From positions 1 to 43,866 of the forward strand of contig JAFQGG010000038.1 of assembly GCA_017415505.1 (NCBI GenBank): a DNA stretch of 43,866 bases. Direction: 5' to 3'. Position numbers and translations under genes: made by a program. Of this stretch, positions 22,404-36,574 are shown one piece after another (within the stretch, counting starts at the first letter, position 1; each line of letters begins with the position of its first letter). Under the pieces are notes generated by a model that searched no databases, was not told the origin of the DNA, and saw only the letters and a program-made list of their open reading frames with translations. The stretch comes from Clostridia bacterium. Lineage in GTDB: Bacteria; Bacillota; Clostridia; Christensenellales; Borkfalkiaceae.

Positions 22404-25400
22404 TTAAGTTTCCGATTCGCTCAAAACGATGGTAACGCTATCTTCGTCGCCGTAATCGAGCGTCGCCGTGTATTCGTTGCCGTCCGTGTCCGTCAATACG
22501 AGCGTGACCGTATCGTCGTCGTTGTAGCTCGTCACGGTATAGGCGTATACGGTAGAGGCTTCGCCGTTCGTTGCCACGACCCCGCCCGTGCCGTCAAAGG
22601 TATACTCCGTGCCGTTCTCGTCCGTAGCTACGGTGAGATACAGCGCGTCTACCTGCGTTTTTATAAACGCTTTATCGCCGTTGATATATGCGCCCTTGTC
22701 GGTGATTTCCGCCGTTTCCAGCTTGAAATACAAAGTCTTGCCCGCTTGCTGTTCTTGCGTCCAAATCAAGATAGATTCCCCGCGCACCGTGTAATAGTAA
22801 TAGGTCACGGTAGGTTTCGAGGTGGGAAGAAGTTGCCAAATAACCTTGGCTACGCCGTACGCAAAACTGCTTTGTACGCCGTCGAAAACAATCGTTTCCT
22901 TCGCGCTTTCGTTCTTCCAAGACCCGAACATAGCGTCCTTTTTCGAGCATACCGCCCAATCGCCCGCGGAAAGATTTCCCGACTCGGAAAGGAGCATCGT
23001 GGACGAGTCGTCTAACAAGAACAGATAATATTCTACGGGTTGCGTGCCGATATAATACTTAAAGTGCAAAGTGGACGCGTCCACGATAGACATGGAAACT
23101 TCGTAACCGTCGGAGTCTTCCGTAATCCCGAATACGGCGTTGATATTGCCGAGCAGGTCGCTCGCGCCGATTTCCATAAGCGCGAACTGTCCGCCGAGTG
23201 CCCAAGTGCCCATAAGAGGATTTTTGATATACAGCTTTTTCGTTTCCGTATCCGTGGTAAATTGGTAATATTTCCCGTCTTGGGAAAGGGTGATCGTTCC
23301 AATCGGCGTTGCGCTTTCCGCGTAGGCGTTTTCGTATACGGCGTATTCCGTTTCCGAAATCATTTTATAGGCGTATTGCTCGTCGTTTTCGGTGAAAGTA
23401 CCGCCCATATTCAACGCACTCTTTCCGTCGAACGAGTAGGAATATTTTCCGTCGTTGGTGACGAACTCAATATCGGCAAAACGGTCTTTTCTGTGCAGTT
23501 GCACCTCGTTACCGTTTTGGAAAACGGTCGCCGTGCCCAAATCTTCGTCGTAGGTGAGGGTATAAGTCACGCCGTTGTAAACGAACAAACCGACGAGCGT
23601 GAAATTTTCAAGCTCGTAGGCAATCTCTACTTCCGTTTCCGTACCGTTCGTGATATCCGTTACGATTAAGGTCGTATTGCCGTACAAACCGAGTCCGCTA
23701 AATTGCAAGGTATTCATGGAGGATTCGTTGCTAATCCAAACCCCGTCGTAGTCGTCTACGAGGTACATGGAGGCGTCGATAAAATCCCCGAGAACGGGAT
23801 AATAGAAGATCGCGCTCAATTTATGGGATTCGGCAACGAAGGTATACGCGCCGAAAATCGCGCCGTCGAGATAGAGCGCGTACACAGCCGAAGCTTCGCT
23901 TTCCGCGTAAGTAAGGGTGTACGCGTAGCCCGCGTCGAAGACGAGGGTAGCCGTACCCACGCCTCGTTGGTTGAGCCCGTGCAAGGTAAGCGTGATTTCC
24001 CGCTCGTTGGAGCTAATCCAAGTCCCTACGGACGCGTCGCTATTGTAATAGGTTTGCGTTTTGCCGTTTCCAACGAGAGTAAGGAATCCCTCTGAGCTAA
24101 ACGAGGCTTTGTATTCCACGCCGTCGTCGGTGAACTTGATTTCCGTATCGCCCAAGCGTTCGTAAACGCCCGTTTTCGTGACCGCGTTATCGCCGTAGCC
24201 CACCGTGTACGACCAACCGCCCATACCGTCGAAACGGTAGGTTTTGCCCACCGTCACCGCCTTCACCCACGCGCCTTTGAACGCGTCGTAGGAAAGGAGC
24301 GCGGAAAGGGCAACCGTTTCCGTCGATGTATCCGCGTAGGTGAGGGTGATTACGCCGTCCTCTACGGTGTAAGAGAAGGATCGCGCGTTGCCGTCAACCG
24401 TCTTTTCGCCCTTTTTGCCGTAGAAGCAAAGCGTTTCGCCCGTGGCAAGGTAATATTCCCCGCGCAGGAGCGTTTCATACGCGCGAAGGGGCGCGTCTTT
24501 TGTAAAGTATACGCCGTCGTAGAGCTTGATAACGCCGTCGTTCACAACGGCGAAGAAATCAAAGACTTGGTATGCGTTGAGATCGAATTTGTCGTCGTTA
24601 TAGAAATATCTTGCAAGGCGCGCGGAATGTACGGTGATCGTTTCGCCGTCGTAGACGAAGTACGCCGTTTCCGTCGTTGCGCCGTCCGTGTAGGTAAGCA
24701 ATCCGCCGTGCTCGTCCACGGTAAATTCAAGGAACGCTTCTTCCGCCGTGTAATCGAGCGCAAGGCTGTACTTGCCGAGAATGGGCGTAGCGTCCGCAAA
24801 GCCCACATAGAACACGATATTTTTCGTGGCGAGGTAGGAATAGGGCACGGGCAGAGTGCAAGCCTCGTCGAGGAAATACCCGTAAGAGATATATCCGTTG
24901 TCCGCTTTGAGGTATTGGGAAAGCCCGTTCACGGCGAACACGTCCGCGATAGGCGCGTAAGTGTCTTCCGCCGAATCGAAATAGTTTTGCGTGTACCCCG
25001 TTTCGCCGTCAAGCTCAATCGTAACGCCCGCGTCCTTGGTCGTGTATTGCAAGGTGAGGGTCGTTTTGAAAGGGGTCGTCGAAGCGTTATAGTTTACGAC
25101 GGGATAAATGCCGTTGGCAAAAATCCAATCGGCGTCCGTCCAGCCGAGCGCGGATTGCAAAGCCGTCGCGTTTTGCAAATCGTAATCTTCCAAGAGAATA
25201 CAGTTGAATACGACGAACTTTTTCGCCGTCAACGCGCTCACGCCCGCCTCGTCGCCACCGCCGACGAAATCGTTTTCGATCGCGTAATCGCCACCGCCGT
25301 ACGCCACCGCGTCTACGCTTTCACAAGCCGACATACTGTCGTTGACGATCGTATCGTTCGACGCGTATCCGACGAGTCCGCCCGCATACGCGTATAAATA

Positions 25401-26687
25401 TCCGCTATCCACTTCCTCGTCGGTGAAAGTATTCTCCGCCGTAATTTCACCCTTGGCGTAGCAGTTGGCGATAGAGGTGTGTCGTCCGAGGAAACCCACG
25501 ATACCGCCCGCGTTGAACCCGCCGTCCACGTCGCCCGAAGCTACGCAGTTATGCACGAACGCAGGGGTGAGCGCGTAATTCGTTTCTAACGCGCCGACGA
25601 TACCGCCCGAATAGAGCACCAAACCGTCTTCTACGCTCAAATCCACGTCCACCGTCGCGTAGCCGATCTCCGCGCCGTAAGAAGCGGAAGCGTCGTAAAC
25701 CGCTTGCATATACCCGACGAGCCCGCCCGCGTAGGAGAAGTAATTTTCGTCGGCGGTTACGTTAAGCACGCCGTTCACGGCTTCGCAGGCGAGCAATCTC
25801 GCGCCCACGCCGTAGCCGACGAGCGACCCGCAAAACATAGAAAGGTTTTCGCTTTGCGTAGCGTTCTTTAAGGAAGCGTTGATCGTGAAGTTTTCCAAAC
25901 GAATCCCGTTGATAAGCCCGCTACTCGTTACGTTCGGGGACGCGTAGACCGCGCCGAATAAACCCACGGCGTTGGAAGAGGTGGAATCAATCGTGAAGTT
26001 GGAAATCGTGAATCTGTCGATTTCTTCGGTGTTGGGATCGTCGTAGCTGGTGATACAACCGCTAAAATACGCGTTGTCCGTCGCGCCGTTGCCGATCACC
26101 TGCAACGCTTCGCCTTTGCAATCGATATCGTTGGCAAGCACGTACGCGCCGTTCACGTAAGCGGGAACGCCGTTATTCACCTGCTCGGCGATATAAACGA
26201 GGTCGATAGGGCGGGAAATCACGAACGCGTCGTCGAACGCGCCCGAACCCGTCATGTTCGATTCGTCTTTTTCAATACCGTTTACTTTGACCGTCGTTTC
26301 CCCGCTCACCGTAAAGGAATAGGAGAGCGTTTGCGTATCGTCCGCACTCACCGACCCGCCGTTGACGAGTACGATAGGATACCCCGCGTAAAACGCGCCG
26401 ATATCCAAACGGAAGGAAACTACGCTACCCGACTTTGCTTTGAGCGCACCGAGCGAGGTTTGCGTTACGCCGTCGATTTTCACGCTTTCAAAATCAAACC
26501 CCGCGCCGTCGATAAAGGAAAGCGCGTATTCTTCGTTGGAAACGGAAGAAGAGCTCGAAGAATCGTTCGTGGAATCGGAAGCCGAATCCAAACTGCCCGT
26601 ATCCGTCGAATCTTCGTTACAACCCACCGCCGCGAGCGTGCAAACGCAGGAGAGGGAAAGCAAAAGTGCAATCAGATATTTTTTCAT
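22404..26687 (-). CDS. Giant surface lipoprotein with GLUG-like repeats
   Basis: The 1427-residue product starts with a lipoprotein signal (MKKYLIALLLSLSCVCTLAA, then VGC with Cys23), followed by a Ser/Asp/Thr-rich linker (about 24-50). Residues about 200-560 hold GLUG-type repeats, recognised by recurring GGLVGY/GGIVG and NCYAKG motifs, as in beta-helical surface proteins such as IgA-protease N-terminal regions. The remaining roughly 800 residues consist of diverged beta repeats with GTW/GVW and Tyr/Thr-rich strands (e.g. GVWISNESSMNTLQFSGLGL). No catalytic site is recognised. It is anchored to the outside of the membrane, perhaps for binding or adhesion. The ATG at 26687 has GGAG 5 bases upstream. 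It is divergent from the redox cassette. Confidence 0.8.
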   Translation of the reverse strand: MKKYLIALLLSLSCVCTLAAVGCNEDSTDTGSLDSASDSTNDSSSSSSVSNEEYALSFIDGAGFDFESVKIDGVTQTSLGALKAKSGSVVSFRLDIGAFYAGYPIVLVNGGSVSADDTQTLSYSFTVSGETTVKVNGIEKDESNMTGSGAFDDAFVISRPIDLVYIAEQVNNGVPAYVNGAYVLANDIDCKGEALQVIGNGATDNAYFSGCITSYDDPNTEEIDRFTISNFTIDSTSSNAVGLFGAVYASPNVTSSGLINGIRLENFTINASLKNATQSENLSMFCGSLVGYGVGARLLACEAVNGVLNVTADENYFSYAGGLVGYMQAVYDASASYGAEIGYATVDVDLSVEDGLVLYSGGIVGALETNYALTPAFVHNCVASGDVDGGFNAGGIVGFLGRHTSIANCYAKGEITAENTFTDEEVDSGYLYAYAGGLVGYASNDTIVNDSMSACESVDAVAYGGGDYAIENDFVGGGDEAGVSALTAKKFVVFNCILLEDYDLQNATALQSALGWTDADWIFANGIYPVVNYNASTTPFKTTLTLQYTTKDAGVTIELDGETGYTQNYFDSAEDTYAPIADVFAVNGLSQYLKADNGYISYGYFLDEACTLPVPYSYLATKNIVFYVGFADATPILGKYSLALDYTAEEAFLEFTVDEHGGLLTYTDGATTETAYFVYDGETITVHSARLARYFYNDDKFDLNAYQVFDFFAVVNDGVIKLYDGVYFTKDAPLRAYETLLRGEYYLATGETLCFYGKKGEKTVDGNARSFSYTVEDGVITLTYADTSTETVALSALLSYDAFKGAWVKAVTVGKTYRFDGMGGWSYTVGYGDNAVTKTGVYERLGDTEIKFTDDGVEYKASFSSEGFLTLVGNGKTQTYYNSDASVGTWISSNEREITLTLHGLNQRGVGTATLVFDAGYAYTLTYAESEASAVYALYLDGAIFGAYTFVAESHKLSAIFYYPVLGDFIDASMYLVDDYDGVWISNESSMNTLQFSGLGLYGNTTLIVTDITNGTETEVEIAYELENFTLVGLFVYNGVTYTLTYDEDLGTATVFQNGNEVQLHRKDRFADIEFVTNDGKYSYSFDGKSALNMGGTFTENDEQYAYKMISETEYAVYENAYAESATPIGTITLSQDGKYYQFTTDTETKKLYIKNPLMGTWALGGQFALMEIGASDLLGNINAVFGITEDSDGYEVSMSIVDASTLHFKYYIGTQPVEYYLFLLDDSSTMLLSESGNLSAGDWAVCSKKDAMFGSWKNESAKETIVFDGVQSSFAYGVAKVIWQLLPTSKPTVTYYYYTVRGESILIWTQEQQAGKTLYFKLETAEITDKGAYINGDKAFIKTQVDALYLTVATDENGTEYTFDGTGGVVATNGEASTVYAYTVTSYNDDDTVTLVLTDTDGNEYTATLDYGDEDSVTIVLSESET

Positions 26688-26739
26688 AAAAACTCCGTAA
26701 AAATTATTTTTGAGCGGTAAACCGCAAAATACCATTATC

Positions 26740-26768
26740 ATTATACTATATATCGAAAAAAAACACAA
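26740..26768 (-). promoter_or_regulatory. Promoter of the giant lipoprotein gene
   Basis: On the minus strand TTGTGT (26763-26768), 17-bp spacer, TATAAT (26740-26745). Confidence 0.75.
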
Positions 26769-26770
26769 GA

Positions 26771-26796
26771 AAAAACGGGTTGCTTTCCCCGTTTTT
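26771..26796. terminator. Terminator-like hairpin between divergent promoters
   Basis: AAAAACGGG and CCCGTTTTT (26771-26779 and 26788-26796) form a 9-bp stem with T tails on both strands. It lies just outside the lipoprotein promoter and before the cassette promoter, so it can only stop transcription coming from further away. Confidence 0.6.
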
Positions 26797-26837
26797 ATCC
26801 GATTTTCATAAAAGGGCGTTCCTGCTTTACGATTCGC

Positions 26838-26866
26838 TTGACAAGTTTTTGCGGATATTATATAAT
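26838..26866 (+). promoter_or_regulatory. Consensus promoter of the redox cassette
   Basis: Perfect TTGACA (26838-26843), 17-bp spacer, perfect TATAAT (26861-26866). GAAGGAG serves the ATG at 26898. Confidence 0.9.
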
Positions 26867-26897
26867 ATAGTGTAGTAAAACGAACGAAGGAGCATTT

Positions 26898-27785
26898 ATG
26901 ACGGATCACGCAAAACGCTTAACGAAACGGATATACGCGATATGTCTTGCGCTGTTGACGCTTCTAACGGGGATTTTGTTTATCGTACAGGTTTTCTCCA
27001 TTTACCGCTCGGCGGAAAGTCAACCGTATACGGTAGAGCGCATATCCGCGCATTTTTGGGCGATCGCGCCCGTGTTTTTCGCTTGGCTTTTGGCAGTCGT
27101 TGCAGGCGGGGTGATATGGACGGCGATACCCGACGCGCCCGAACGTCCGAAAGCGTATATCGAGTTGAAAACGACGCTTGAAAAATTTGAAAAAAGACTT
27201 CCGCTCGGGGAAATCCCCCCGCAAGCCAAACGCTTGCGGGCGATAAGAACCGTCGTTTGGTGCGTGAGTTTGGCTTGTTGCCTCGTTTCGGCAATCGTTT
27301 CTTTTACCGTGCTTACGGATAAGAGCTACGCGCCCCGTTTCCAAACGGAATTTTTCACGGCGCACGGCGGGGCGGCGGATAGGCTCGTTCGCATTTTGCC
27401 GTGGATATTGGCGGGATTTTTCGCGCTCGTCTTTGCTTCTATTTTTGCGTTCCATAGCGAGAAAAAGCAAATTGGAATCGTAAAGACGGCGGTGGCGGAG
27501 CGCGTGAAAAAGACGGCGAAAGAAACGGGTGAAGTCGCGACGCTTTCGGAAACGCAAACGGCGTTGTCGGCGAGTGTAAAAGCGGAAACGCAAGGGGAGA
27601 AAAAAAGCGAATCGCTTTTGGAAAAATACCCGTTCCTGCAATCCAAATGGTGGGGAATCGGGTTGAGAATCGCAATCGGCGCGCTGGGCGTTGCCCTCGT
27701 CGTCGTAGGGATTTTCAACGGCGGTATGGAAGACGTCTTGCTCAAAGCGGTGAAGATTTGTACCCAATGTATCGGTCTTGGCTAA
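26898..27785 (+). CDS. Membrane protein with C-terminal CD1871A-like CXXC tail
   Basis: The 295-residue protein has four hydrophobic helices (about 12-34, 50-72, 115-137, 165-187), a charged cytoplasmic stretch (190-250), and a last helix. The last helix runs straight into GIFNGGMEDVLLKAVKICTQ, then CIGLG-COOH, giving Cys288-Thr-Gln-Cys291. That ending matches the approximately 40-residue CD1871A family of CXXC proteins, which normally are free-standing and sit beside 4Fe-4S and TlpA genes. Here it is fused to a roughly 250-residue membrane part that I do not recognise. The CXXC pair at the membrane surface suggests thiol or electron relay. It is the first gene of the cassette, 14 bp before the iron-sulfur gene. 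Confidence 0.72.
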   Translation: MTDHAKRLTKRIYAICLALLTLLTGILFIVQVFSIYRSAESQPYTVERISAHFWAIAPVFFAWLLAVVAGGVIWTAIPDAPERPKAYIELKTTLEKFEKRLPLGEIPPQAKRLRAIRTVVWCVSLACCLVSAIVSFTVLTDKSYAPRFQTEFFTAHGGAADRLVRILPWILAGFFALVFASIFAFHSEKKQIGIVKTAVAERVKKTAKETGEVATLSETQTALSASVKAETQGEKKSESLLEKYPFLQSKWWGIGLRIAIGALGVALVVVGIFNGGMEDVLLKAVKICTQCIGLG

Positions 27786-27799
27786 ATTAGGGGAACGCT

Positions 27800-28807
27800 A
27801 TGAAGAAATTTTTCGGTAAAATAAAAAAATGGTTCGTCGATCATAAGCCGACGAAGCGCAGACTTATCCAAGTCTACACCGCGCTTTTGTATAACGCGAA
27901 TATCAAAGGCTTTTTCAACGGCGAAATTTATAAAGGCGCGAGCAAAAACGCGTGCGTTCCCGGCTTGAACTGTTATTCCTGTCCCGGGGCGGTCGGTTCT
28001 TGTCCACTCGGCGCGTTGCAAAACGCGCTGTCCGCGTCTAAAACGCGCGCGCCCGCTTATATCTTCGGGATTATTATTTTGTTCGGCTTATTGCTCGGTC
28101 GTACGATTTGCGGGTTTTTATGCCCCGTGGGGTTGGGGCAGGAGCTTTTGTATAAAATCAAAACGCCCAAAGCCAAAAAGAGTAAAGTAACGCGCGTGTT
28201 TTCCTATTTGAAATACGTCGTATTGATCGTGTTCGTCGTGATCATACCCCTTACGCTCACCATTCCCGGATTTTGCGAATACATATGCCCCGCGGGAACT
28301 TTCGAGGGCGGATTGGGGCTTTTATCCAACTCCGCAAACGAGGATTTGTTGTCCATTCTCGGACCGCTGTTCACTTGGAAATTCGCCGTGCTCGTGGCGG
28401 TGATCGTGCTCAGTATCTTTTTCTTTCGGTTCTTTTGCCGTTTCCTGTGCCCGCTCGGCGCGCTTTACGGTTTCTTCTCCAAGATCGCCCTGCTCGGGAT
28501 CAAATTGGATAAAAACAAGTGCACCGATTGCGGACTTTGTATCGGCGTTTGTAAAATGGACGTGAAAAAGGTGGGAGACCACGAATGTATAAGCTGTGGC
28601 GAATGTATTTCCGTTTGCCCCGCAAAAGCCATTTCTTGGAAGGGTTCGAGCCTCTTGGTTCGCCCCAACGACGCGGATATGCCCGCTACGACGGAAATTA
28701 AACCGCTTGCGGGTATGCTCAAACGCAAAGAACCCATAGAAGAGGAAGAAACCGCGCTCGCGCAATCGGTCAACGAAATGAACGGGGAGGACGCGAGCAA
28801 TGAGTAA
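27800..28807 (+). CDS. NapH-like membrane 4Fe-4S protein
   Basis: The 335-residue protein combines several membrane helices with many Cys motifs: CVPGLNCYSCPGAVGSCPLG near the N-terminus, GRTICGFLCPVG, EYICPAG and FCRFLCPLG around the helices. A C-terminal two-cluster ferredoxin follows (CTDCGLCIGVCKMDV and CISCGECISVCPAKAI, about 238-275). This is the layout of NapH/NosR/YccM-type proteins, which carry electrons across or to the membrane. In the CD1871A/TlpA neighbourhood it is the likely source of electrons for the thioredoxin. The ribosome site is AGGGGAACGCT. The stop overlaps the next start by 8 bases (ATGAGTAA). Confidence 0.88.
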   Translation: MKKFFGKIKKWFVDHKPTKRRLIQVYTALLYNANIKGFFNGEIYKGASKNACVPGLNCYSCPGAVGSCPLGALQNALSASKTRAPAYIFGIIILFGLLLGRTICGFLCPVGLGQELLYKIKTPKAKKSKVTRVFSYLKYVVLIVFVVIIPLTLTIPGFCEYICPAGTFEGGLGLLSNSANEDLLSILGPLFTWKFAVLVAVIVLSIFFFRFFCRFLCPLGALYGFFSKIALLGIKLDKNKCTDCGLCIGVCKMDVKKVGDHECISCGECISVCPAKAISWKGSSLLVRPNDADMPATTEIKPLAGMLKRKEPIEEEETALAQSVNEMNGEDASNE

Positions 28808-29435
28808 GAAAACGAATTGGTTGAAAATCGGCGCGTATACGCTCGCAGGCGCGGTGCTTTGCGGTGCGCTCGTGTATTATAACTTCTTCGATAAAGTGGA
28901 AGTGGAAGTCAAAGCGCGTGGCGTAGGGGAAAAATGCTCGGATATTTCCTTGCAAACCTATAAAACGGAAAACGGCAAATTCGCCGTCGGCGGAGAAGAT
29001 TTCCTGTTGAGCGATTATAGGGGCAAGGTCGTCGTGCTCAACTTTTGGGCGACTTGGTGCGGACCTTGCAAGGCGGAAATTCCACACTTTAACGAGTTTT
29101 ACGAAGCGTATGCAAACGATATTGAAATGGTGATTATCAACACGGAAACCAACTTAACGCAAGAGGTGCTGTGCGATAACTATTTGAATAACGCCGTCGG
29201 AGAAAAGGAGTACGAGGGGTGGACGGAATACGCCTGCACCTTTGCCAAATACGACGCGGAAAACGATATTTACGCCAAGGCGTTTCTCGTCGCGGGAAAA
29301 GACGGAACGAAACGCGCCCCGCAAAGCTTACCGCTCACCGTGATCGTAGATCAAGAGGGCGAAATCCGTTACGCGGGCGAGGGCAAGCTCACTTACGAGG
29401 CGTTGGAAGCACAAGTACTTCCGTTGCTTGACTAA
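28800..29435 (+). CDS. Membrane-anchored TlpA-family thioredoxin
   Basis: The 211-residue protein has one N-terminal membrane anchor (about residues 8-28) and an extracytoplasmic thioredoxin domain with NFWATWCGPCKAEIPHFNEF, active-site Cys87 and Cys90. The cis-Pro segment SLPLTVIVDQEGEIRYAGEG is present. A family insertion between the helix and the cis-Pro holds another Cys pair. TlpA proteins reduce disulfides outside the cytoplasm, e.g. in cytochrome or surface-protein maturation. It overlaps the iron-sulfur gene and closes the cassette, so the two are probably partners. A hairpin terminator follows. Confidence 0.9.
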   Translation: MSKKTNWLKIGAYTLAGAVLCGALVYYNFFDKVEVEVKARGVGEKCSDISLQTYKTENGKFAVGGEDFLLSDYRGKVVVLNFWATWCGPCKAEIPHFNEFYEAYANDIEMVIINTETNLTQEVLCDNYLNNAVGEKEYEGWTEYACTFAKYDAENDIYAKAFLVAGKDGTKRAPQSLPLTVIVDQEGEIRYAGEGKLTYEALEAQVLPLLD

Positions 29436-29527: not shown

Positions 29528-31501
29528 TTATCTGATTCGGCTTGTGAAATCAATACCCGTTGCGTTTGCCGTAAACACGATATTCCAATTGAATTCGCCG
29601 TAAACGTAATCCTCTTCGCCGTAGGGTGCAACTACCATGAACGTAATAACTTCACCGGCTTTTACGTTGTAAGAGGTGTTGTATTCGTACGAAGACATAC
29701 CTACTCTAATAATGGCGGGAGTTTCGTCGTCGCTCATAAAGGTGATCGTACCGTCTGCCGTCGCCGTATAGGTGTAATAGATATAGGAAACGGTTTCGCT
29801 AAGCGTAGTCTTGTTCGTTGCGCTTGCCGTATTCGCTTTGTAAGCGGACGAGCCGTCTGCTTCCACCGTACCTTCCGTGAAGGTCATGGTGAAGGTAACG
29901 CTCATGTCGCCTTCCGCGGAAAGGGCAACGACAGAGCCTTTCTTAACGGAGAAGGAATCGGATATATCTTCCGTTTCAGCGCTCGTATCGTAGCTTGCGT
30001 TCGTGTTCATATCGACTACCCAGCAGTTTTCGGTGATGTCCGAGAAGGTGAGCGTACCGTCCGCAGGAGCGGTAAATACCGCGCTTTGCGTTGCCCACTT
30101 GCTACGGTCGTAATTCAAGGTGATAGCCGTACCGCTAATAAGTTCGAAAGGAACGTCGAAGCCGTCGGGTTCAATACCTTCCGTTACGGTAAGCTTCCAA
30201 GTATAATCGTCCGCCGTGTAGCTGTTGATTGCAATGGTAAGCGTTTCGCCTGCTTTCAACGATACGTTCGCGTTCAATTCGATGTTCCCTTCCACATAAT
30301 CGTATTGCGCGTTGTATATCAAAACGAAGAAATCAAGGCTTTCGGAAGAGAATACGAGCGTGCTGTCTTTTTCCGCCGTGTAGCAGTAGTAAACGGGCGA
30401 ATCTTCCATTTCGATCGTCGTCACCGTATCTTCTCCCGCTTTGATTTCGTAAGGGAATGCGGAAGAGCCGTCTTGGGGTACTACGTATTCCTTATCTTCA
30501 TAGGTGAAGTATACGGGATATCCGCTCATACTTACAAGCATGAAATAATTTGTAACGCCTGCGGTAACGGGGATTTCTTGATTGAGGGCGTAGGGGGCAG
30601 GACCCGTCGAATCCATTTGCATGATATCGCCGAGCCATTGGATCATTGCGCCCGAACTACCTTCCTCTTCTTCTTCGCATTCGAATTTCACAACGCCGTC
30701 TTTTTCAGCGGTGTAGGCGAAAACGCCCATACCTAAAATGTAATTATCCGCTTCAATTTCGCTTGCGAATATGAGATTCGTATCGAAGGAAACGTCGAAA
30801 GAAAGGTCAACGCTTGCCGCAGGTTCGCCTTCTTCGGGAGCAACTGCGCTAACCTCAATGTCAAACGACATACCGGGATAGCAGGCGACAAACGCCACTT
30901 CTTCATAATCTACCATAATAGAAATATTCTCGTTTTCCGATTCAAACGAGAGGATGCCGAACTCGGTCGTCGTAATCGTATAGTAGGTCGTGGTATACGC
31001 CATTTCTTCGTATTCGTTCATTTCGTACTTGGAAACGGTCGTGTAAGTAGCGTTTACGCAAGGAAGAGCGAGATGATCGAAGTAGGACGCACCCGTCGTT
31101 TCTTTCACGTAGAAGGTCGCGTTTTCAACCGCCGCACCGTTTTTACCCGTTACGTCGATAGTTACCTTGTCACCCTTCTTAACGAGCACTGCGCCGTAGT
31201 ATTCCGCCTTTTCGCCTACGTAAGCGGAAACTTCCAAATCGCCGTATACGTCGAAGGAAACGGAGCCGTCCACGGTAGCCGTGTATTCGTACTTTTTCGT
31301 TTCACCTGCCGCAACGGAAACGACGTTGGGAAGAATCCCTTCTGCCGCCGTGGGCACTACGGGGGTTACGCTTTCGCCTCCCGTGCTTTGACCGCCTTCC
31401 GAGGAGCTTGACGAAGAATCGTTACAAGCAACCGCCGTCGCAAGACAAGCCGTTCCGAGGATAGCCGTGCAAAGCAGAGCCAACTTCTTGAATTTTGCCA
31501 T
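29528..31501 (-). CDS. Surface lipoprotein with repeated PPC-like beta domains
   Basis: The 657-residue product has a signal peptide with lipobox ATAVAC (Cys26) and a SSSSSSEGGQSTGG linker. It continues with at least four beta-sandwich units of the type found in bacterial pre-peptidase C-terminal domains: recurring phrases are KYEYTATVDGSVSF, VFAYTAEKDGVVKFECE, VYYCYTAEKDSTLVFSSE, TQSAVFTAPADGTLTFSD and IYYTYTATADGTITFMSD. No catalytic domain is present, so binding or structural roles are likely. GGAGGTATTTTT precedes the ATG. It is 55 bp downstream of the next lipoprotein gene on the same strand and may be its last cotranscribed partner. Confidence 0.8.
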   Translation of the reverse strand: MAKFKKLALLCTAILGTACLATAVACNDSSSSSSEGGQSTGGESVTPVVPTAAEGILPNVVSVAAGETKKYEYTATVDGSVSFDVYGDLEVSAYVGEKAEYYGAVLVKKGDKVTIDVTGKNGAAVENATFYVKETTGASYFDHLALPCVNATYTTVSKYEMNEYEEMAYTTTYYTITTTEFGILSFESENENISIMVDYEEVAFVACYPGMSFDIEVSAVAPEEGEPAASVDLSFDVSFDTNLIFASEIEADNYILGMGVFAYTAEKDGVVKFECEEEEEGSSGAMIQWLGDIMQMDSTGPAPYALNQEIPVTAGVTNYFMLVSMSGYPVYFTYEDKEYVVPQDGSSAFPYEIKAGEDTVTTIEMEDSPVYYCYTAEKDSTLVFSSESLDFFVLIYNAQYDYVEGNIELNANVSLKAGETLTIAINSYTADDYTWKLTVTEGIEPDGFDVPFELISGTAITLNYDRSKWATQSAVFTAPADGTLTFSDITENCWVVDMNTNASYDTSAETEDISDSFSVKKGSVVALSAEGDMSVTFTMTFTEGTVEADGSSAYKANTASATNKTTLSETVSYIYYTYTATADGTITFMSDDETPAIIRVGMSSYEYNTSYNVKAGEVITFMVVAPYGEEDYVYGEFNWNIVFTANATGIDFTSRIR

Positions 31502-31556: not shown

Positions 31557-33692
31557 TTAGTCGTTGGGCGTGAATACGAGCGTTACTTCTTCGGTAACGA
31601 TCACGTCCGATTCGAAACGAATAATAAACAGGTTCGTTTCTTCGTTTTCTTCCACGGTGACTTGGCAAAGCGTCGCGCCTTCCACCGTCAAAGTGCCTGC
31701 CGTCGTCGCCTCGTAAGAAAACAGGGCGATATTGGTAAGCTTTCCGCTCATAAGCACCGCTTCCGAAGTGGATACGGACAGCGCGCCGAGCGCGGAAACG
31801 GGCAGGGGTTGGGTTTTTGAAATTCGAAGCGTAAGCGCAGTTTCTTTTCCGCCTTTATCCGAAAGACGGAAGGTCATGCCCGTCGTTTCGTCCGCTTCGA
31901 AAGTAATGGAGAACGCGCCTTGTATTTGCTTTTCGCCGATACGGATCAACGCGTTTTCGTTATCGCAGGATACCGTATAGAACCCCGCGGGGCATTTCAC
32001 GTTATAATAAACGAAATCGAAAAGCTTGGTGGTAACGGTCAAATCCTTGTCAAGATCTTCCGCGGTAAGCTGTACGGGGCGTTCTTCCGTGCCTTGCGTA
32101 AGCGCGGCGTAGAAATAGCAGGGCGCAAGCCAAGCGTATTTTTCGCGCAACGCCTCGTCTTCCCAAATACTATCGGGAATTTCCACGGGCTTATTCAGGG
32201 AAACGTAAAGATTGAGGAATTCGAACAATTCCTGCGTAACGGGATACACGCCGTCTTTATTTACGTAATTTTGATAACAGTTCCCGTAATTGGTTGCGTA
32301 CGATTTCATGATAAACGGCGCGTAGTCGGCGACGAGGTAATTGCCTTCCGCGTCCTTGCCCGTTTGCAAATCCAATCTTCCGCCGTCGTCCATAATACTC
32401 GTAAAGGACGCCGCCGAGCCTGCTCCGCCCACGAAAAGCCGAGGGGCGGAAACGGTGATGGCAACGAAAATGATTTTGCCCGGCTTCTCCGCCGTACCGC
32501 GACGGTAGTAGCCCGTCGTTTCGTCGTAGAAATAATCACCCGAATAGGGCATGGGGGAGAGGGAAACGCCCTCGCCGCCCTCGGGCGCGTAAGTTCTTTG
32601 AATTTGCGTGGGGATCACGCTCGTTCTCACGGTCGAGGGAATCCAAGCCGCGTCCGCAACGCGCACGAAGCGTACGCGTACGATATCGCCCGCATCGCCC
32701 GTTAATTGCCAAGTGGCGCGCCAATCTTCGCTGTAATGCATTTGCGAACAGTTGACATCCGAATAGAAATTGGTTGCGGGAAGCAAACCGTCTTCCGTGA
32801 ACACTCTCGCTTCTTCACCGCCCGAATAGCCGATAACTTCGCCGTCGTCGTTATAGATTGCGCCGGGGATATAATGGGTACTCGCGTCGTAACGCGTCGC
32901 TTTTACGCCGTCGGCGTTTTGCAACGAATACATAGCGTACTGCCCCGATTCGGGAACGGTAAGGGATACCCACGCGCTTCCGTTTGCGCCCAGCTCAAAC
33001 TCGTAATAGCCTTGCTCCGTATCCACCGTATAACGGTTGAAATCGCTTCCGTCTTCGCCCGCTTCTTCAAAGGGATTGCCCGCGTCGTAATTGTTGACGT
33101 AAGTAATCGTACTAGGCGAGTCAGGGAGCGTGACGACCGTCGTACATTCGCTACAAACGCCGTTTTTGTAGGCGTGTCCGTGCGCCGAAATCGTTTTGCT
33201 CGTCGTGTGGGTAGAATCTCTACGGCAAACGGCGGACTGTTCGCCCTCGTCCGTGCACGAAAATTCGTCCGAAAGACTCCAAATCCAATCGTGACCGATC
33301 GCTTCCGTTTTTCGCGTGGTCGTATGCGACGGATCGTGCGCGCAAGTCCCCGTTTCCTTGCCTGCCGTTTCGCAAGTGGGGGCGAGCGTTTCCGTCCATA
33401 CGTATTCGTGCGCCGACTTATTCACGGGAATCTCTTCTACCGTCGTCGCTCCGCAATTACAAGAGCCCGTCTTTTCGCCCTTTTCCGTGCAGGTGGCTTT
33501 TTTCGTGGTTTTGTACGACCACGAGTGTTCATGCTCGGCGGAGGAAGAGTCGGAATCGACGCTTTCGCTTGCCGTGCTTTGGTTTACGCTATCGCTCTCG
33601 TAGCTTTCACCGCCCTCGCACGCGGTAAACGCGATAGAGGAGGTAAACAGCAACGCGAGCAATATCGCGGTAATTTTGCGTGTCTTTTTCAT
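31557..33692 (-). CDS. Cys-rich surface lipoprotein with a shared unknown module
   Basis: The 711-residue protein has a lipobox FTAC (Cys25) and a Ser/Asp linker. Three Cys/His-containing repeats follow (about residues 54-185; e.g. KKATCTEKGEKTGSCNCG and APTCETAGKETGTCAHDPSH), a repeat type common in Clostridia surface proteins that might bind zinc. A beta-rich segment (about 215-345) comes next, then one copy of the module (about 381-531) also found twice in the neighbouring lipoprotein. No enzyme motif is seen. The ATG at 33692 has AGAGG upstream and lies only 11 bp after the stop of the TlpA-domain lipoprotein, so the two are cotranscribed. Confidence 0.8.
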   Translation of the reverse strand: MKKTRKITAILLALLFTSSIAFTACEGGESYESDSVNQSTASESVDSDSSSAEHEHSWSYKTTKKATCTEKGEKTGSCNCGATTVEEIPVNKSAHEYVWTETLAPTCETAGKETGTCAHDPSHTTTRKTEAIGHDWIWSLSDEFSCTDEGEQSAVCRRDSTHTTSKTISAHGHAYKNGVCSECTTVVTLPDSPSTITYVNNYDAGNPFEEAGEDGSDFNRYTVDTEQGYYEFELGANGSAWVSLTVPESGQYAMYSLQNADGVKATRYDASTHYIPGAIYNDDGEVIGYSGGEEARVFTEDGLLPATNFYSDVNCSQMHYSEDWRATWQLTGDAGDIVRVRFVRVADAAWIPSTVRTSVIPTQIQRTYAPEGGEGVSLSPMPYSGDYFYDETTGYYRRGTAEKPGKIIFVAITVSAPRLFVGGAGSAASFTSIMDDGGRLDLQTGKDAEGNYLVADYAPFIMKSYATNYGNCYQNYVNKDGVYPVTQELFEFLNLYVSLNKPVEIPDSIWEDEALREKYAWLAPCYFYAALTQGTEERPVQLTAEDLDKDLTVTTKLFDFVYYNVKCPAGFYTVSCDNENALIRIGEKQIQGAFSITFEADETTGMTFRLSDKGGKETALTLRISKTQPLPVSALGALSVSTSEAVLMSGKLTNIALFSYEATTAGTLTVEGATLCQVTVEENEETNLFIIRFESDVIVTEEVTLVFTPND
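32100..32552 (-). repeat. Unknown surface module, copy C
   Basis: Residues about 381-531 of the Cys-rich lipoprotein: starts YFYDETTGYYRRG, contains GVYPVTQELFEFLNLYVS, and ends WLAPCYFYAAL. The order of motifs matches the two copies in the neighbouring lipoprotein. Confidence 0.6.
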
Positions 33693-33703
33693 AAAAACCT
33701 CTT

Positions 33704-36574
33704 TTAAGCTTGGGGCGCGAGCGTCAATTCGTAGTAGCAAAGCATGAGCCACGAATTATAGATACCGTCGTATTTGTCCACGGTAATCTTTTGAAGGATA
33801 TCGAACACCTCTTGCGTGACTTTGATATATCCTTCCAACGCGCCCGTATTGTTGCTCGCCTCGAAACAAAGCGCCATTACGTCCGCCGTATAATCCTTAC
33901 CGCCGATATAGAACGCGCGCAACTCCTCGGGATAAATAAACTCGTTGTTCTCGTCCTTTGCCATGGCTTGACGGCAAATATCGTAAAGGGAAATAGAGGA
34001 GAAGAACGCCGTAGGTTTGTTGCAGTCGAGGTAAATAATCGCGTCGTTCGATTTCGCGCGGTATACGTCGTTCGTTTCGTCGTAATAGTATTCGATTGCG
34101 TCGGGCAGGTACAACTCGAATGTGTTAAGGTTCGCGCTGTAAGGACCTACCGCCGCGTTCGCCATATAGGTGTAGGATTCGCCCAAATAATCGATCACCA
34201 CGTCGTAGTTTGCCGTTACGTCGAGATAGGTCGTGAAGAGCATATAATAGGTCTTATTCGCTTCGAAATAATAGTAGAAACTAAAATTCGTTTCGGGAAC
34301 GAGTACGGTTTCTTCCTTGCCGTCCGCGCCCGTTTGCGTTTCTTCTCTATACACGCCGATTTGATCGGTGTAAGTGCCGAGGAAGGTTTCCTTGTCTTCG
34401 CCTACGAGGAAGCAAACGGTGTCGTAAGTGCCCAAAGAATAAATATGGTACGCGCCCGCCGTCGTCGGGGTGAACTTATACTTAAACCCGCGGGGTTTCA
34501 TGGCGAAAGGTACGCTTACGCTCGTCGTGCTCGTAAGCTTCCCGTTGACCTCTCGTACGGGGTTCATGGGGATCGCGGCGTGGAAGCTAATTCCCTTGGT
34601 GGGGTCTTCCATTTGCGCGGCGTTGCCGTACGGTTGATAGTATACGCAAAGCTCCAACCATTCGTTATCGTGCGTGTCGCCGTCCCATTTTTGCGCGTAA
34701 TCCACGTACGCCGTAACGAGCTTCAACAATTCCGCAAGCTCTTCCGTTACGGGCACGTAGCCGTTATTTTTCATATTATTCGAAGCGACCCAGCTATGTT
34801 CCTCGATAAGGTCGGCGAGGTTGTTTCCGCCCACCGTGCAGTACCCGCCGTAAGCGAGCAACCAAACGCTCGTTTCACTCCAAAGCGATTCGAATAACAA
34901 GTTGGCAAAGAGGATAGGACCGTCTTTCGCGCCTACGTGGTAATATCCGTCGCCCCCTTCCGATTGCGGATAGAGGACGGGAGTAATATAATCGTTAAAC
35001 TGTGCAGTCGCGCTTTCGTCCGTCGCGGGATTGGTTGCCGCGTACTTGAAAATCGTCGCGCCTACGTTGGAACTTACCAACGACTCGGGGGAAACGAGTT
35101 GGAGATTCTTGATCTTCACTTCGTCGTCGCCTGCGGAGGTATCGCCGTCTTTGAGATAGATAAGCGAAAGCCTGTGTTCGCCCATTTGTTCTTCTTCGTC
35201 GAATACGTACGCAAGGCAGGTCTTCCAATTTTGCTCGATTCCCGAGAATTTATGGATAACTACGTCGTCGATCAATACGTAGAGCATATCCCCGTCGAGT
35301 TCGCTACTAATAAGGTAATCGAAAGTGATAGCCGTGTCCGCGTTGACGGTGAAATCCACGTACAGCTCGGCGTAGGTGCTCACGAGCTTGTTGGGGGTGT
35401 ACAAATACCCGTCGGTTTCGTTTACCAGCCAGGGCCAAGAATATTCGTCCTGTTCGTTCCAAGAATAGTCGAACGCTTGATTGCCCCCGCCCAATACTTG
35501 GTGTACCTTGGAAATAGCGGGCGCTTCGACGTCGGGTTTGATTTGTTCGCTACCCGTACCGTCTTCGGGCGTTTCGTCTTCACTTCCGCCTGCCCCGATA
35601 ATCACTTGCTCGTATTCTTCGTCCGTGCCTTCGGTCAAAAGCGCGAACTTCTCGGTGAATTGGTTCTTGTTCGTCATAGACCCCGCTTCCATAAACGCGA
35701 TCGCACCGAAACGGTCGATCAGTACGGAATAGGGGATTGCGCTCGTGTTGAACATATTCGTCAAGTTTCCACCGCTCGCCGCCATATCGAAGAATAAGCC
35801 TTGCGCCGATTTGAACGCCGCGACGTCTTTTTTGCTGTCCGTCGTGCTCATGGCGAGCACGGACACGGTGTCGCGGTATTCGTAATACGCGCTGTTGAGC
35901 GCGGGGAATTCCATTTTACAAGGACCGCACCAAGTCGCCCAGAAATTGATAAGCACCGCTTTCTTTTCTTTGAGTACCTCGGAAAGCGTGTACGAGTTGT
36001 CGTCGGAAGTGGTGATCGTGAAATCGTACATCACGTCGCCGAGCTTGTACGTCTTTCCCGCAGGGGCGGTTTCTTTGATAACGCCCGTGGGTTTAATCGC
36101 AATCTCGACCGTCGTGCCGATTTCCGCTTCCGTCGTATACGAAGCGTCTTGATTTGCAAGCGCGTAGCCCGCGGGAAGCTCGGAAAGGGTCACTTCGTAC
36201 TCGCCCGCTTGGGAAATCATGTTTTCTTCTGTTCCCTCTTTGAACAGGGCGTATCCCGTTGCGGAGGTCGTTTTTACGGCTACCGTGTTTTCGCCGTCCG
36301 AAAGGGTAACTTTCACGCCCGAAATTCCGTATCCGCCTTCCGTTTGCACCTTTACGCGATATGCGTACAGGTTCTCGTTTTCGTCCGAAGACGACGAGGA
36401 GGAAGAGGAGGAATCGGACGAATCGCTATTCGATACCGAATCGCTTACGCTTACGGAATCGGAAGAAAAACCGCTGTCCTCAATACTGTCTTTCCCGCAA
36501 GCCACGCCGACGGCAAGGGAAGCCGTCGCGACGAGCGACGCGAGAAAAATAAGTGTCTTTTTCAATCTTTTCAT
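33704..36574 (-). CDS. Large surface lipoprotein with a TlpA thioredoxin domain
   Basis: The 956-residue protein has these parts: signal peptide with lipobox VGVAC (Cys26); a Ser/Asp linker (27-68); a Cna-B/prealbumin-like beta domain (about 70-165, KVQTEGGYGISGVKVTLSDG); a complete TlpA thioredoxin domain (about 172-315) with FWATWCGPCK (Cys216, Cys219) and cis-Pro segment SAIPYSVLIDRFG; a beta-sandwich domain (about 390-500); copy A of an unknown module (533-650); a PPC-like domain (about 690-800); and copy B of the module (827-952). The thioredoxin should act on the outer face of the membrane. It is 17 bp downstream of the small lipoprotein gene and 11 bp upstream of the Cys-rich one. It is a natural candidate partner of the nearby membrane TlpA cassette (inference). 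Confidence 0.85.
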   Translation of the reverse strand: MKRLKKTLIFLASLVATASLAVGVACGKDSIEDSGFSSDSVSVSDSVSNSDSSDSSSSSSSSSDENENLYAYRVKVQTEGGYGISGVKVTLSDGENTVAVKTTSATGYALFKEGTEENMISQAGEYEVTLSELPAGYALANQDASYTTEAEIGTTVEIAIKPTGVIKETAPAGKTYKLGDVMYDFTITTSDDNSYTLSEVLKEKKAVLINFWATWCGPCKMEFPALNSAYYEYRDTVSVLAMSTTDSKKDVAAFKSAQGLFFDMAASGGNLTNMFNTSAIPYSVLIDRFGAIAFMEAGSMTNKNQFTEKFALLTEGTDEEYEQVIIGAGGSEDETPEDGTGSEQIKPDVEAPAISKVHQVLGGGNQAFDYSWNEQDEYSWPWLVNETDGYLYTPNKLVSTYAELYVDFTVNADTAITFDYLISSELDGDMLYVLIDDVVIHKFSGIEQNWKTCLAYVFDEEEQMGEHRLSLIYLKDGDTSAGDDEVKIKNLQLVSPESLVSSNVGATIFKYAATNPATDESATAQFNDYITPVLYPQSEGGDGYYHVGAKDGPILFANLLFESLWSETSVWLLAYGGYCTVGGNNLADLIEEHSWVASNNMKNNGYVPVTEELAELLKLVTAYVDYAQKWDGDTHDNEWLELCVYYQPYGNAAQMEDPTKGISFHAAIPMNPVREVNGKLTSTTSVSVPFAMKPRGFKYKFTPTTAGAYHIYSLGTYDTVCFLVGEDKETFLGTYTDQIGVYREETQTGADGKEETVLVPETNFSFYYYFEANKTYYMLFTTYLDVTANYDVVIDYLGESYTYMANAAVGPYSANLNTFELYLPDAIEYYYDETNDVYRAKSNDAIIYLDCNKPTAFFSSISLYDICRQAMAKDENNEFIYPEELRAFYIGGKDYTADVMALCFEASNNTGALEGYIKVTQEVFDILQKITVDKYDGIYNSWLMLCYYELTLAPQA
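33719..34096 (-). repeat. Unknown surface module, copy B
   Basis: Residues about 827-952 of the TlpA-domain lipoprotein: starts EYYYDETNDVYRA, contains GYIKVTQEVFDILQKIT, and ends NSWLMLCYYEL. Confidence 0.6.
34625..34978 (-). repeat. Unknown surface module, copy A
   Basis: Residues about 533-650 of the TlpA-domain lipoprotein: starts near GGDGYYHVGAKDGPI, contains NNGYVPVTEELAELLKLVT, and ends NEWLELCVYYQPYG. Confidence 0.6.

Follow-up and report, generated by a model that had tools for sequence, protein, structure and literature searches.

A cassette of three genes, termed genes A, B and C, is carried by the window, which is the whole 43,866-nucleotide stretch of DNA analysed here (contig JAFQGG010000038.1 of the Clostridia bacterium assembly GCA_017415505.1). 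The genes encode a membrane protein with a CD1871A-type cysteine tail, a membrane-spanning iron-sulfur protein and a membrane-anchored thioredoxin-fold protein of the TlpA/ResA type. To judge from their sequences, proteins A, B and C probably make up an electron conduit across the membrane, by which thioredoxin-like proteins at the surface are kept reduced in a set of anaerobes that, with few exceptions, lack CcdA/DsbD. The computed basis of this proposal consists of the gene order, the invariant cysteines, the predicted topology, the linkage of the tail with B, the natural tail-B and B-C fusions, and the near absence of CcdA/DsbD. The tail and its neighbours belong to an already named family; the new part is the five-helix fusion in protein A and the link between the tail and the outer cysteines of B.

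The source genome, in which the window is contig C29, has a size of 1.82 Mb and is 94% complete. Genes A and B are separated by 14 bp and genes B and C overlap by 8 bp. Inspection of the open reading frames (ORFs) confirms the coordinates given for the three genes in an earlier note on this DNA, all on the plus strand.

CD1871A-type tail of protein A

The last 36 residues of protein A (residues 260-295) match the CD1871A profile NF040920 with an E-value of 1.8e-7 and a score of 30.9 bits in a protein search, which falls short of the curated cut-off (32 bits) by 1.1 bits. The score is 35.3 bits in a six-frame search, and protein A of a relative (genome G003) scores 33.3 bits, both over the cut-off. 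This match is more than chance, because NF040920 is found in none of the 14 control genomes in each of three samples, and because none of six tail residues (Lys283, Ala284, Cys288, Cys291, Gly293 and Gly295) varies among the 29 aligned fusion proteins. Cys288 and Cys291 fall within the last eight residues of the protein. The proposal of the earlier note that the protein ends in a CD1871A-type tail with a CXXC pair is thus borne out, and the search against CD1871A models that it had recommended gives the match described above, the lack of which had been named as a refuting outcome.

The hydrophobic segments of protein A, as determined from hydropathy, are located at residues 12-30, 55-73, 118-136 and 166-184, and at residues 254-272 within the tail. 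This gives five predicted helices for the whole protein, with four outside the CD1871A part. Thus, the four-helix protein of roughly 250 residues that had been described as the fusion partner of the tail keeps its four helices, but the tail itself adds a fifth one. The net charges, which for A and B are averages over alignments with segment borders set by hand, are +2.6 for the N terminus, +4.9 for the middle loop and +6.3 for the linker of protein A, suggesting that these regions are inside, and −0.3 for the C-terminal tail, suggesting that this region, including the CXXC pair, is outside.

No residues of protein A match a Pfam family above its cut-off in a Pfam scan, and no convincing solved relative is found in the PDB, the best E-value being 0.02. 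Because the four-helix part contains no conserved cysteine, only the tail of protein A can be redox-active by cysteines. For the same reason, the plain reading of the four-helix part is that it is most likely a membrane scaffold that has grown onto the tail. A DsbB/VKOR-like role of this part was considered and set aside, because it has no conserved cysteine.

Cysteines and topology of protein B

Protein B matches Fer4_5 with 72.1 bits (cut-off 22). It contains 18 cysteines, all of which are invariant in 69 aligned rows including that of the window; short tail rows are left out of this alignment, because the tails seemed to align with the ferredoxin region. Cys104, Cys108, Cys213 and Cys217 are predicted to be located at the inner face of the membrane, and Cys52, Cys58, Cys61, Cys68, Cys159 and Cys163, together with the CXXC pair of protein A, at the outer face. 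The net charges of the N terminus (+4.7), the middle loop (+5.0) and the ferredoxin end (+3.6) place these regions inside, and that of the second outer loop (−0.1) places it outside.

Protein B had been described as NapH-like. This description holds for the inner motifs and the ferredoxin domain, but the relationship is only remote, because the score against TIGR02163 (NapH/MauN) is 79.4 bits with a cut-off of 213, and because protein B has six extra outer cysteines. Among the PDB matches listed (60 of 162), the alignment of protein B with solved relatives is limited to the ferredoxin region. The score of protein C against ResA (NF002854) is 77.9 bits, under the cut-off of 170. A lipobox, as defined by a simple pattern, is present in 24 of the 31 C frames outside the four-helix group.

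Linkage of the tail with protein B

Of the 108 short loci, among which some places are counted twice, 107 have B downstream of the tail on the same strand; in the remaining one (L048), the contig ends after a further 162 bp. The tail and the B profile match are mostly less than 0.25 kb apart in these loci. Among 60 wide loci, which were hand-picked from tail-bearing places and are therefore uninformative on B without a tail, the tail is upstream of B on the same strand in 58 and fused to the C terminus of B in two. A genus-wide search of 79 genomes gives ten such tail-on-B proteins. Loci L154, L155 and L174-L183, all of one genus, carry this fusion. Genes B and C share one frame in 20 of the 60 wide loci; C is separate on the same strand at a distance of 4 kb or less in 38, and not found in two. 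The B-C fusion proteins (L073-L085, L088-L093 and L095) have a length of roughly 490-730 amino acids. The wide and short loci agree with the view that a 4Fe-4S protein and TlpA are the usual neighbours of CD1871A, and conservation was looked for and found both for the CXXC pair (29 of 29 fusions) and for the three-gene order, for each of which a lack of conservation had been named as a refuting outcome.

The Fer4_5 genes of the order were surveyed in 121 genomes, 43 of which have such genes, giving 57 distinct genes by our own count. A motif search assigns both the outer motif and the tail to 34 genes, neither of them to 22, and the tail without the motif to one. When the sequences are read by eye, 35 genes have both the outer cysteines and the tail, 20 have neither, and two are undecidable due to contig ends. 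The gene with the tail alone in the motif search (G236:C111) has CLPGLSCYSCP, a variant of the outer motif. Of the 22 genes assigned neither feature, G232:C76 has a TlpA-type neighbour, and its motif is truncated by the end of the contig. The absence of the tail at G249:C14, another of the 22, is uninformative, because this gene has just 106 bp of upstream DNA; each of the 20 genes with neither feature has at least 0.9 kb. A TlpA-type neighbour is not found for these 20 genes or for the G249 gene within the stretch examined. The association between the outer cysteines and the tail (35 versus 20 genes) gives a Fisher p of 2e-15, a value that is uncorrected for kinship.

Near absence of CcdA/DsbD

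The DsbD_TM domain (PF02683) is detected in four of 151 genomes of the family, namely in two of the 40 cassette carriers (G097 and G116) and in two of the 111 non-carriers. It is detected neither in the genome of the window nor in proteins A, B and C, and it is present in ten of the 14 control genomes. Nearly all carriers are without CcdA to feed protein C.

Distribution and origin of the fusion

Gene A is found by its own sequence in 39 of the 151 family genomes (E-value of 1e-3 or better), and gene B in 40 (E-value of 1e-10 or better). In the sole genome with B only by these searches (G003), a divergent A with a length of 282 amino acids is located directly upstream of B. A adjoins B in all 40 family genomes with either gene, and the other 111 have neither at these thresholds. 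The tail/four-helix fusion is a trait of the lineage. NF040920 is found in 61 of the 200 genomes of the order sample, 57 of them above the cut-off; four further families have frames of 264-408 amino acids, and the loci of these frames match the four-helix profile. The profile is found in 71 of 391 genomes of the class sample and 40 of 299 genomes of the phylum sample, mostly in short frames. A scan of named genomes gives 411 relatives, of which 80 were kept; these 80 bear the names of uncultured Clostridia, Clostridiales or Oscillospiraceae, and by the isolate names, many of these 80 loci come from the guts of deer, sheep, goats and rabbits. The presence of A in them is by construction, because they were found through similarity to A. 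A full B is present in 78 of these loci, all with the tail, the four-helix A and the outer cysteines, which in one locus take the form of a motif variant; B and C are in one frame in 58 of the 78. Of the other two loci, L270 stops inside B, and L250 has 573 bp past the tail with no B match. The plasmid collection gives no close match to A and B together.

In a quick tree of B with 69 rows, for which support was estimated with the Shimodaira-Hasegawa-like approximate likelihood ratio test (SH-aLRT) and without bootstrap, 29 rows with a four-helix A and one row with a two-helix A are located on one side of a branch with an SH-aLRT of 99. This group joins the ten tail-on-B rows with an SH-aLRT of 96. 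Two-helix forms of A with roughly 150 amino acids are recognized by eye in L095, L188, L189 and L190; L189 and L190 are flagged as four-helix forms by a weak profile match, yet they are read as two-helix forms. As judged from these frames, there is a series that consists of the tail with roughly 50 amino acids, the two-helix form and the four-helix form, besides the tail fused to B itself. The two-helix form is a possible intermediate between the free tail and the four-helix A. In hhalign, an end-to-end alignment of both halves of the four-helix part is obtained at a probability of only 20.8%, which is no more than suggestive of an internal doubling.

Gene D as a candidate client

Gene D, which is located on the opposite strand downstream of the cassette, encodes a large putative lipoprotein. 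Similar large proteins are encoded within 5 kb of the cassette on the opposite strand in 14 of 28 wide loci with a four-helix A, and all 14 contain a C..C pair. D is matched in 35 of the 151 family genomes, namely in 34 of the 40 with B and one of the 111 without B. Five of these 35 matches (G009, G042, G084, G145 and G150) are confined to the TlpA part and may represent other TlpA proteins; when only matches that extend past the TlpA domain are counted, the numbers are 29 of 40 and one of 111. These results suggest that D is the best candidate client of the cassette, and no more than a candidate.

Proposed electron path and alternatives

In the proposed path, electrons from a low-potential cytoplasmic donor would enter the cytoplasmic ferredoxin domain of protein B. 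The two inner CX3CP motifs would hold an inner membrane cluster, which would take up the electrons next and pass them to an outer cluster among the six outer cysteines of B. The outer cluster would then reduce the CXXC pair at the end of protein A, which would be placed outside beside B, and this pair would in turn reduce the thioredoxin fold of protein C, and thereby its clients, for example lipoprotein D at the surface. The inner and outer clusters are inferred from the invariant cysteines and the predicted topology, and the contacts and the direction of the electrons are likewise predictions. Outward flow of electrons is the downhill direction, because ferredoxin-type clusters in general have a lower potential than dithiols. 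The earlier note had proposed that thiols are reduced from the cytoplasm to the surface. The layout fits this proposal, which is to be narrowed in that only the tail of protein A would be redox-active by its cysteines.

Several observations weigh against the conduit. The link between the outer cysteines and the tail may reflect one inherited subfamily. The lack of CcdA/DsbD is family-wide and so, taken alone, is no pointer to the cassette. One genome (G002, contig C9:15772-18660) has a full-length D with no B match, and six of the 40 genomes with B have no D match. The tail and B are separated by 455-707 bp in four short loci. The first outer loop of B is mildly positive (+2.1) and its first helix is only weakly hydrophobic (mean hydropathy of +0.58), and for this reason the outside position of this loop is the least sure part of the topology.

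The CXXC pair may alternatively be a cluster ligand rather than a relay. In this arrangement, Cys288 and Cys291 of protein A would hold one inter-protein cluster together with Cys159 and Cys163 of protein B, Cys52, Cys58, Cys61 and Cys68 would hold another, and protein C would be reduced directly by an outer cluster, much like the disulfide in ferredoxin:thioredoxin reductase. The outer and tail cysteines sum to eight, i.e., two sets of four, they co-vary in all 55 decidable Fer4_5 genes, and the middle residues of the CXXC pair (such as TE, TQ, LE and ME) differ from the GP of thioredoxins. However, ligand arithmetic is no evidence for a cluster, and CXXC pairs beside thioredoxin-fold partners are commonly relays. 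This arrangement is considered rather unlikely, albeit the most serious of the alternatives. As with the relay, the cassette would be a wire that reduces surface thiols; the role of the CXXC pair is what differs.

Other alternatives concern the purpose of the cassette and of the tail. The electrons may flow inward, or the cassette may serve another purpose as an oxidative or metal-reducing surface system, and would then not keep C and D reduced. This is improbable, because outward flow is downhill by general potentials and the carriers are gut Clostridia, although no client besides D is identified. It is still less probable, to the point of being hardly credible, that the tail is mainly a structural subunit for the membrane assembly of B with its cysteines off the electron path. 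The tail adjoins B or is fused to it in nearly all loci and the four-helix part of A is without a conserved cysteine, which speaks for such a subunit, but neither tail cysteine varies among the 29 fusions, and both are retained in the tails of the order sample.

Feature coordinates and neighbouring genes

Table 1. Positions of the cassette, its cysteine motifs and gene D in the window.
Feature	Position	Strand	Description or basis
Gene A	26898..27785	+	295-amino-acid ORF; membrane protein with four-helix N-terminal part and CD1871A-type tail
Four-helix part of A, residues 1-185	26898..27452	+	No conserved cysteine; no Pfam family over cut-off
CD1871A-type tail of A, residues 254-295	27657..27782	+	One helix followed by the CXXC end, predicted outside; NF040920 and charge counts
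CXXC of A, Cys288/Cys291	27759..27770	+	Invariant in 29/29 aligned fusions
Gene B	27800..28807	+	335-amino-acid four-helix Fer4_5 protein with C-terminal 4Fe-4S dicluster ferredoxin domain
First outer cysteine group of B, Cys52, 58, 61, 68 (CVPGLNCYSCPGAVGSC)	27953..28003	+	Invariant; aligns to no E. coli NapH cysteine
Inner CX3C of first CX3CP motif of B, Cys104, Cys108	28109..28123	+	Invariant; corresponds to CSWVCP of NapH
Second outer cysteine group of B, Cys159, Cys163 (CEYICP)	28274..28288	+	Invariant; NapH has no cysteine there
Inner CX3C of second inner CX3CP motif of B, Cys213, Cys217	28436..28450	+	Invariant; corresponds to CGHICP of NapH
Cytoplasmic ferredoxin domain of B, residues 241-273, eight cysteines	28520..28618	+	Fer4 36.3 bits, cut-off 21.1
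Gene C	28800..29435	+	211-amino-acid membrane-anchored TlpA/ResA-type thioredoxin-fold protein; AhpC-TSA 62.6 bits, cut-off 26
CXXC of C, Cys87/Cys90 (WCGPC)	29058..29069	+	Sequence
Gene D	33704..36574	−	956-amino-acid putative lipoprotein with one TlpA-type domain (WCGPC); ORF and TlpA-type profile match; candidate client

The cassette is flanked by three large lipoprotein-like ORFs (22404-26909, 29528-31501 and 31557-33752), all on the minus strand. One of them gives a weak GLUG match just below the cut-off of Pfam, and the other two give no match. A Pfam domain that binds flavin mononucleotide (FMN) is not found in A, B, C or these three ORFs, which were scanned at 22407-26750, 29531-31501 and 31560-33752. 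At a locus with a free-standing tail (L098:8444-9991), B is followed by an ORF that resembles a pyridine nucleotide-disulfide oxidoreductase and then by a small regulator-like ORF, as judged by eye.

Implications

No description of the cassette or the fusion is found by title or abstract start among open-licence full texts, so that the statement of the earlier note that the fusion and the function of the neighbourhood are undescribed is correct within this literature. The same texts contain no paper on CD1871A, and no printed function is found for the family. CD18710 appears in a table row labelled conjugative transposon in one paper, and a CD1871 frameshift in an ABC transporter permease is mentioned in another. 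Likewise, the open-licence literature gives no description of how anaerobes without CcdA/DsbD keep their extracytoplasmic thioredoxin-fold proteins reduced.

A wider idea, in which belief and doubt are evenly balanced, is that a ferredoxin-fed iron-sulfur wire through the membrane, which is completed by a cysteine tail of 40 residues acting as a relay or a cluster ligand, takes the place of CcdA/DsbD in Bacillota-like anaerobic Clostridia. In the lineage of the window, this microprotein would have been elaborated into a subunit with five helices and become coupled to a giant thioredoxin lipoprotein at the surface. If this is true, a conserved conduit of the ferredoxin type that has a cysteine tail of its own would answer how such anaerobes reduce surface thioredoxin-fold proteins, and would represent a widespread further way of reducing the cell surface. 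Surface thiol redox would then be tied to central ferredoxin metabolism, and a function would be suggested for CD1871A. Because tail-on-B and B-on-C fusions occur naturally, single-chain proteins could be used to test the idea.

Comparison with known systems

The free-standing CD1871A (NF040920) neighbourhood has the same tail, directly upstream of B, and a TlpA-type partner. It differs from the cassette in that the tail is usually encoded by a frame of roughly 50-120 amino acids, whereas here it is located behind a four-helix membrane part. NapH of E. coli (TIGR02163 family) resembles protein B in its four-helix core, two inner CX3CP motifs and C-terminal ferredoxin domain, but has no cysteine at the six outer places that are invariant in B. 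Ferredoxin:thioredoxin reductase, in which a 4Fe-4S cluster reduces a disulfide with electrons from ferredoxin, is a soluble enzyme, whereas the cassette is predicted to span the membrane, with the disulfide outside.

In NapH-like conduits with an FMN-binding domain (PMC8238504) and in PceC/RdhC (PMC5928378), a membrane iron-sulfur protein has been proposed to pass electrons to an outer redox carrier. PceC has CX3CP motifs, the role of which is given as unknown. The outer carrier of both systems is FMN, whereas a CXXC tail and a thioredoxin-fold protein would take its place here. CcdA works with a surface thioredoxin in Fusobacterium (PMC12288474). The cassette resembles CcdA/DsbD in that reducing power would be delivered to extracytoplasmic thioredoxin-fold proteins. 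It differs from them in that CcdA/DsbD use cysteine pairs fed by thioredoxin, whereas the cassette, which has no DsbD_TM domain, has iron-sulfur motifs instead.

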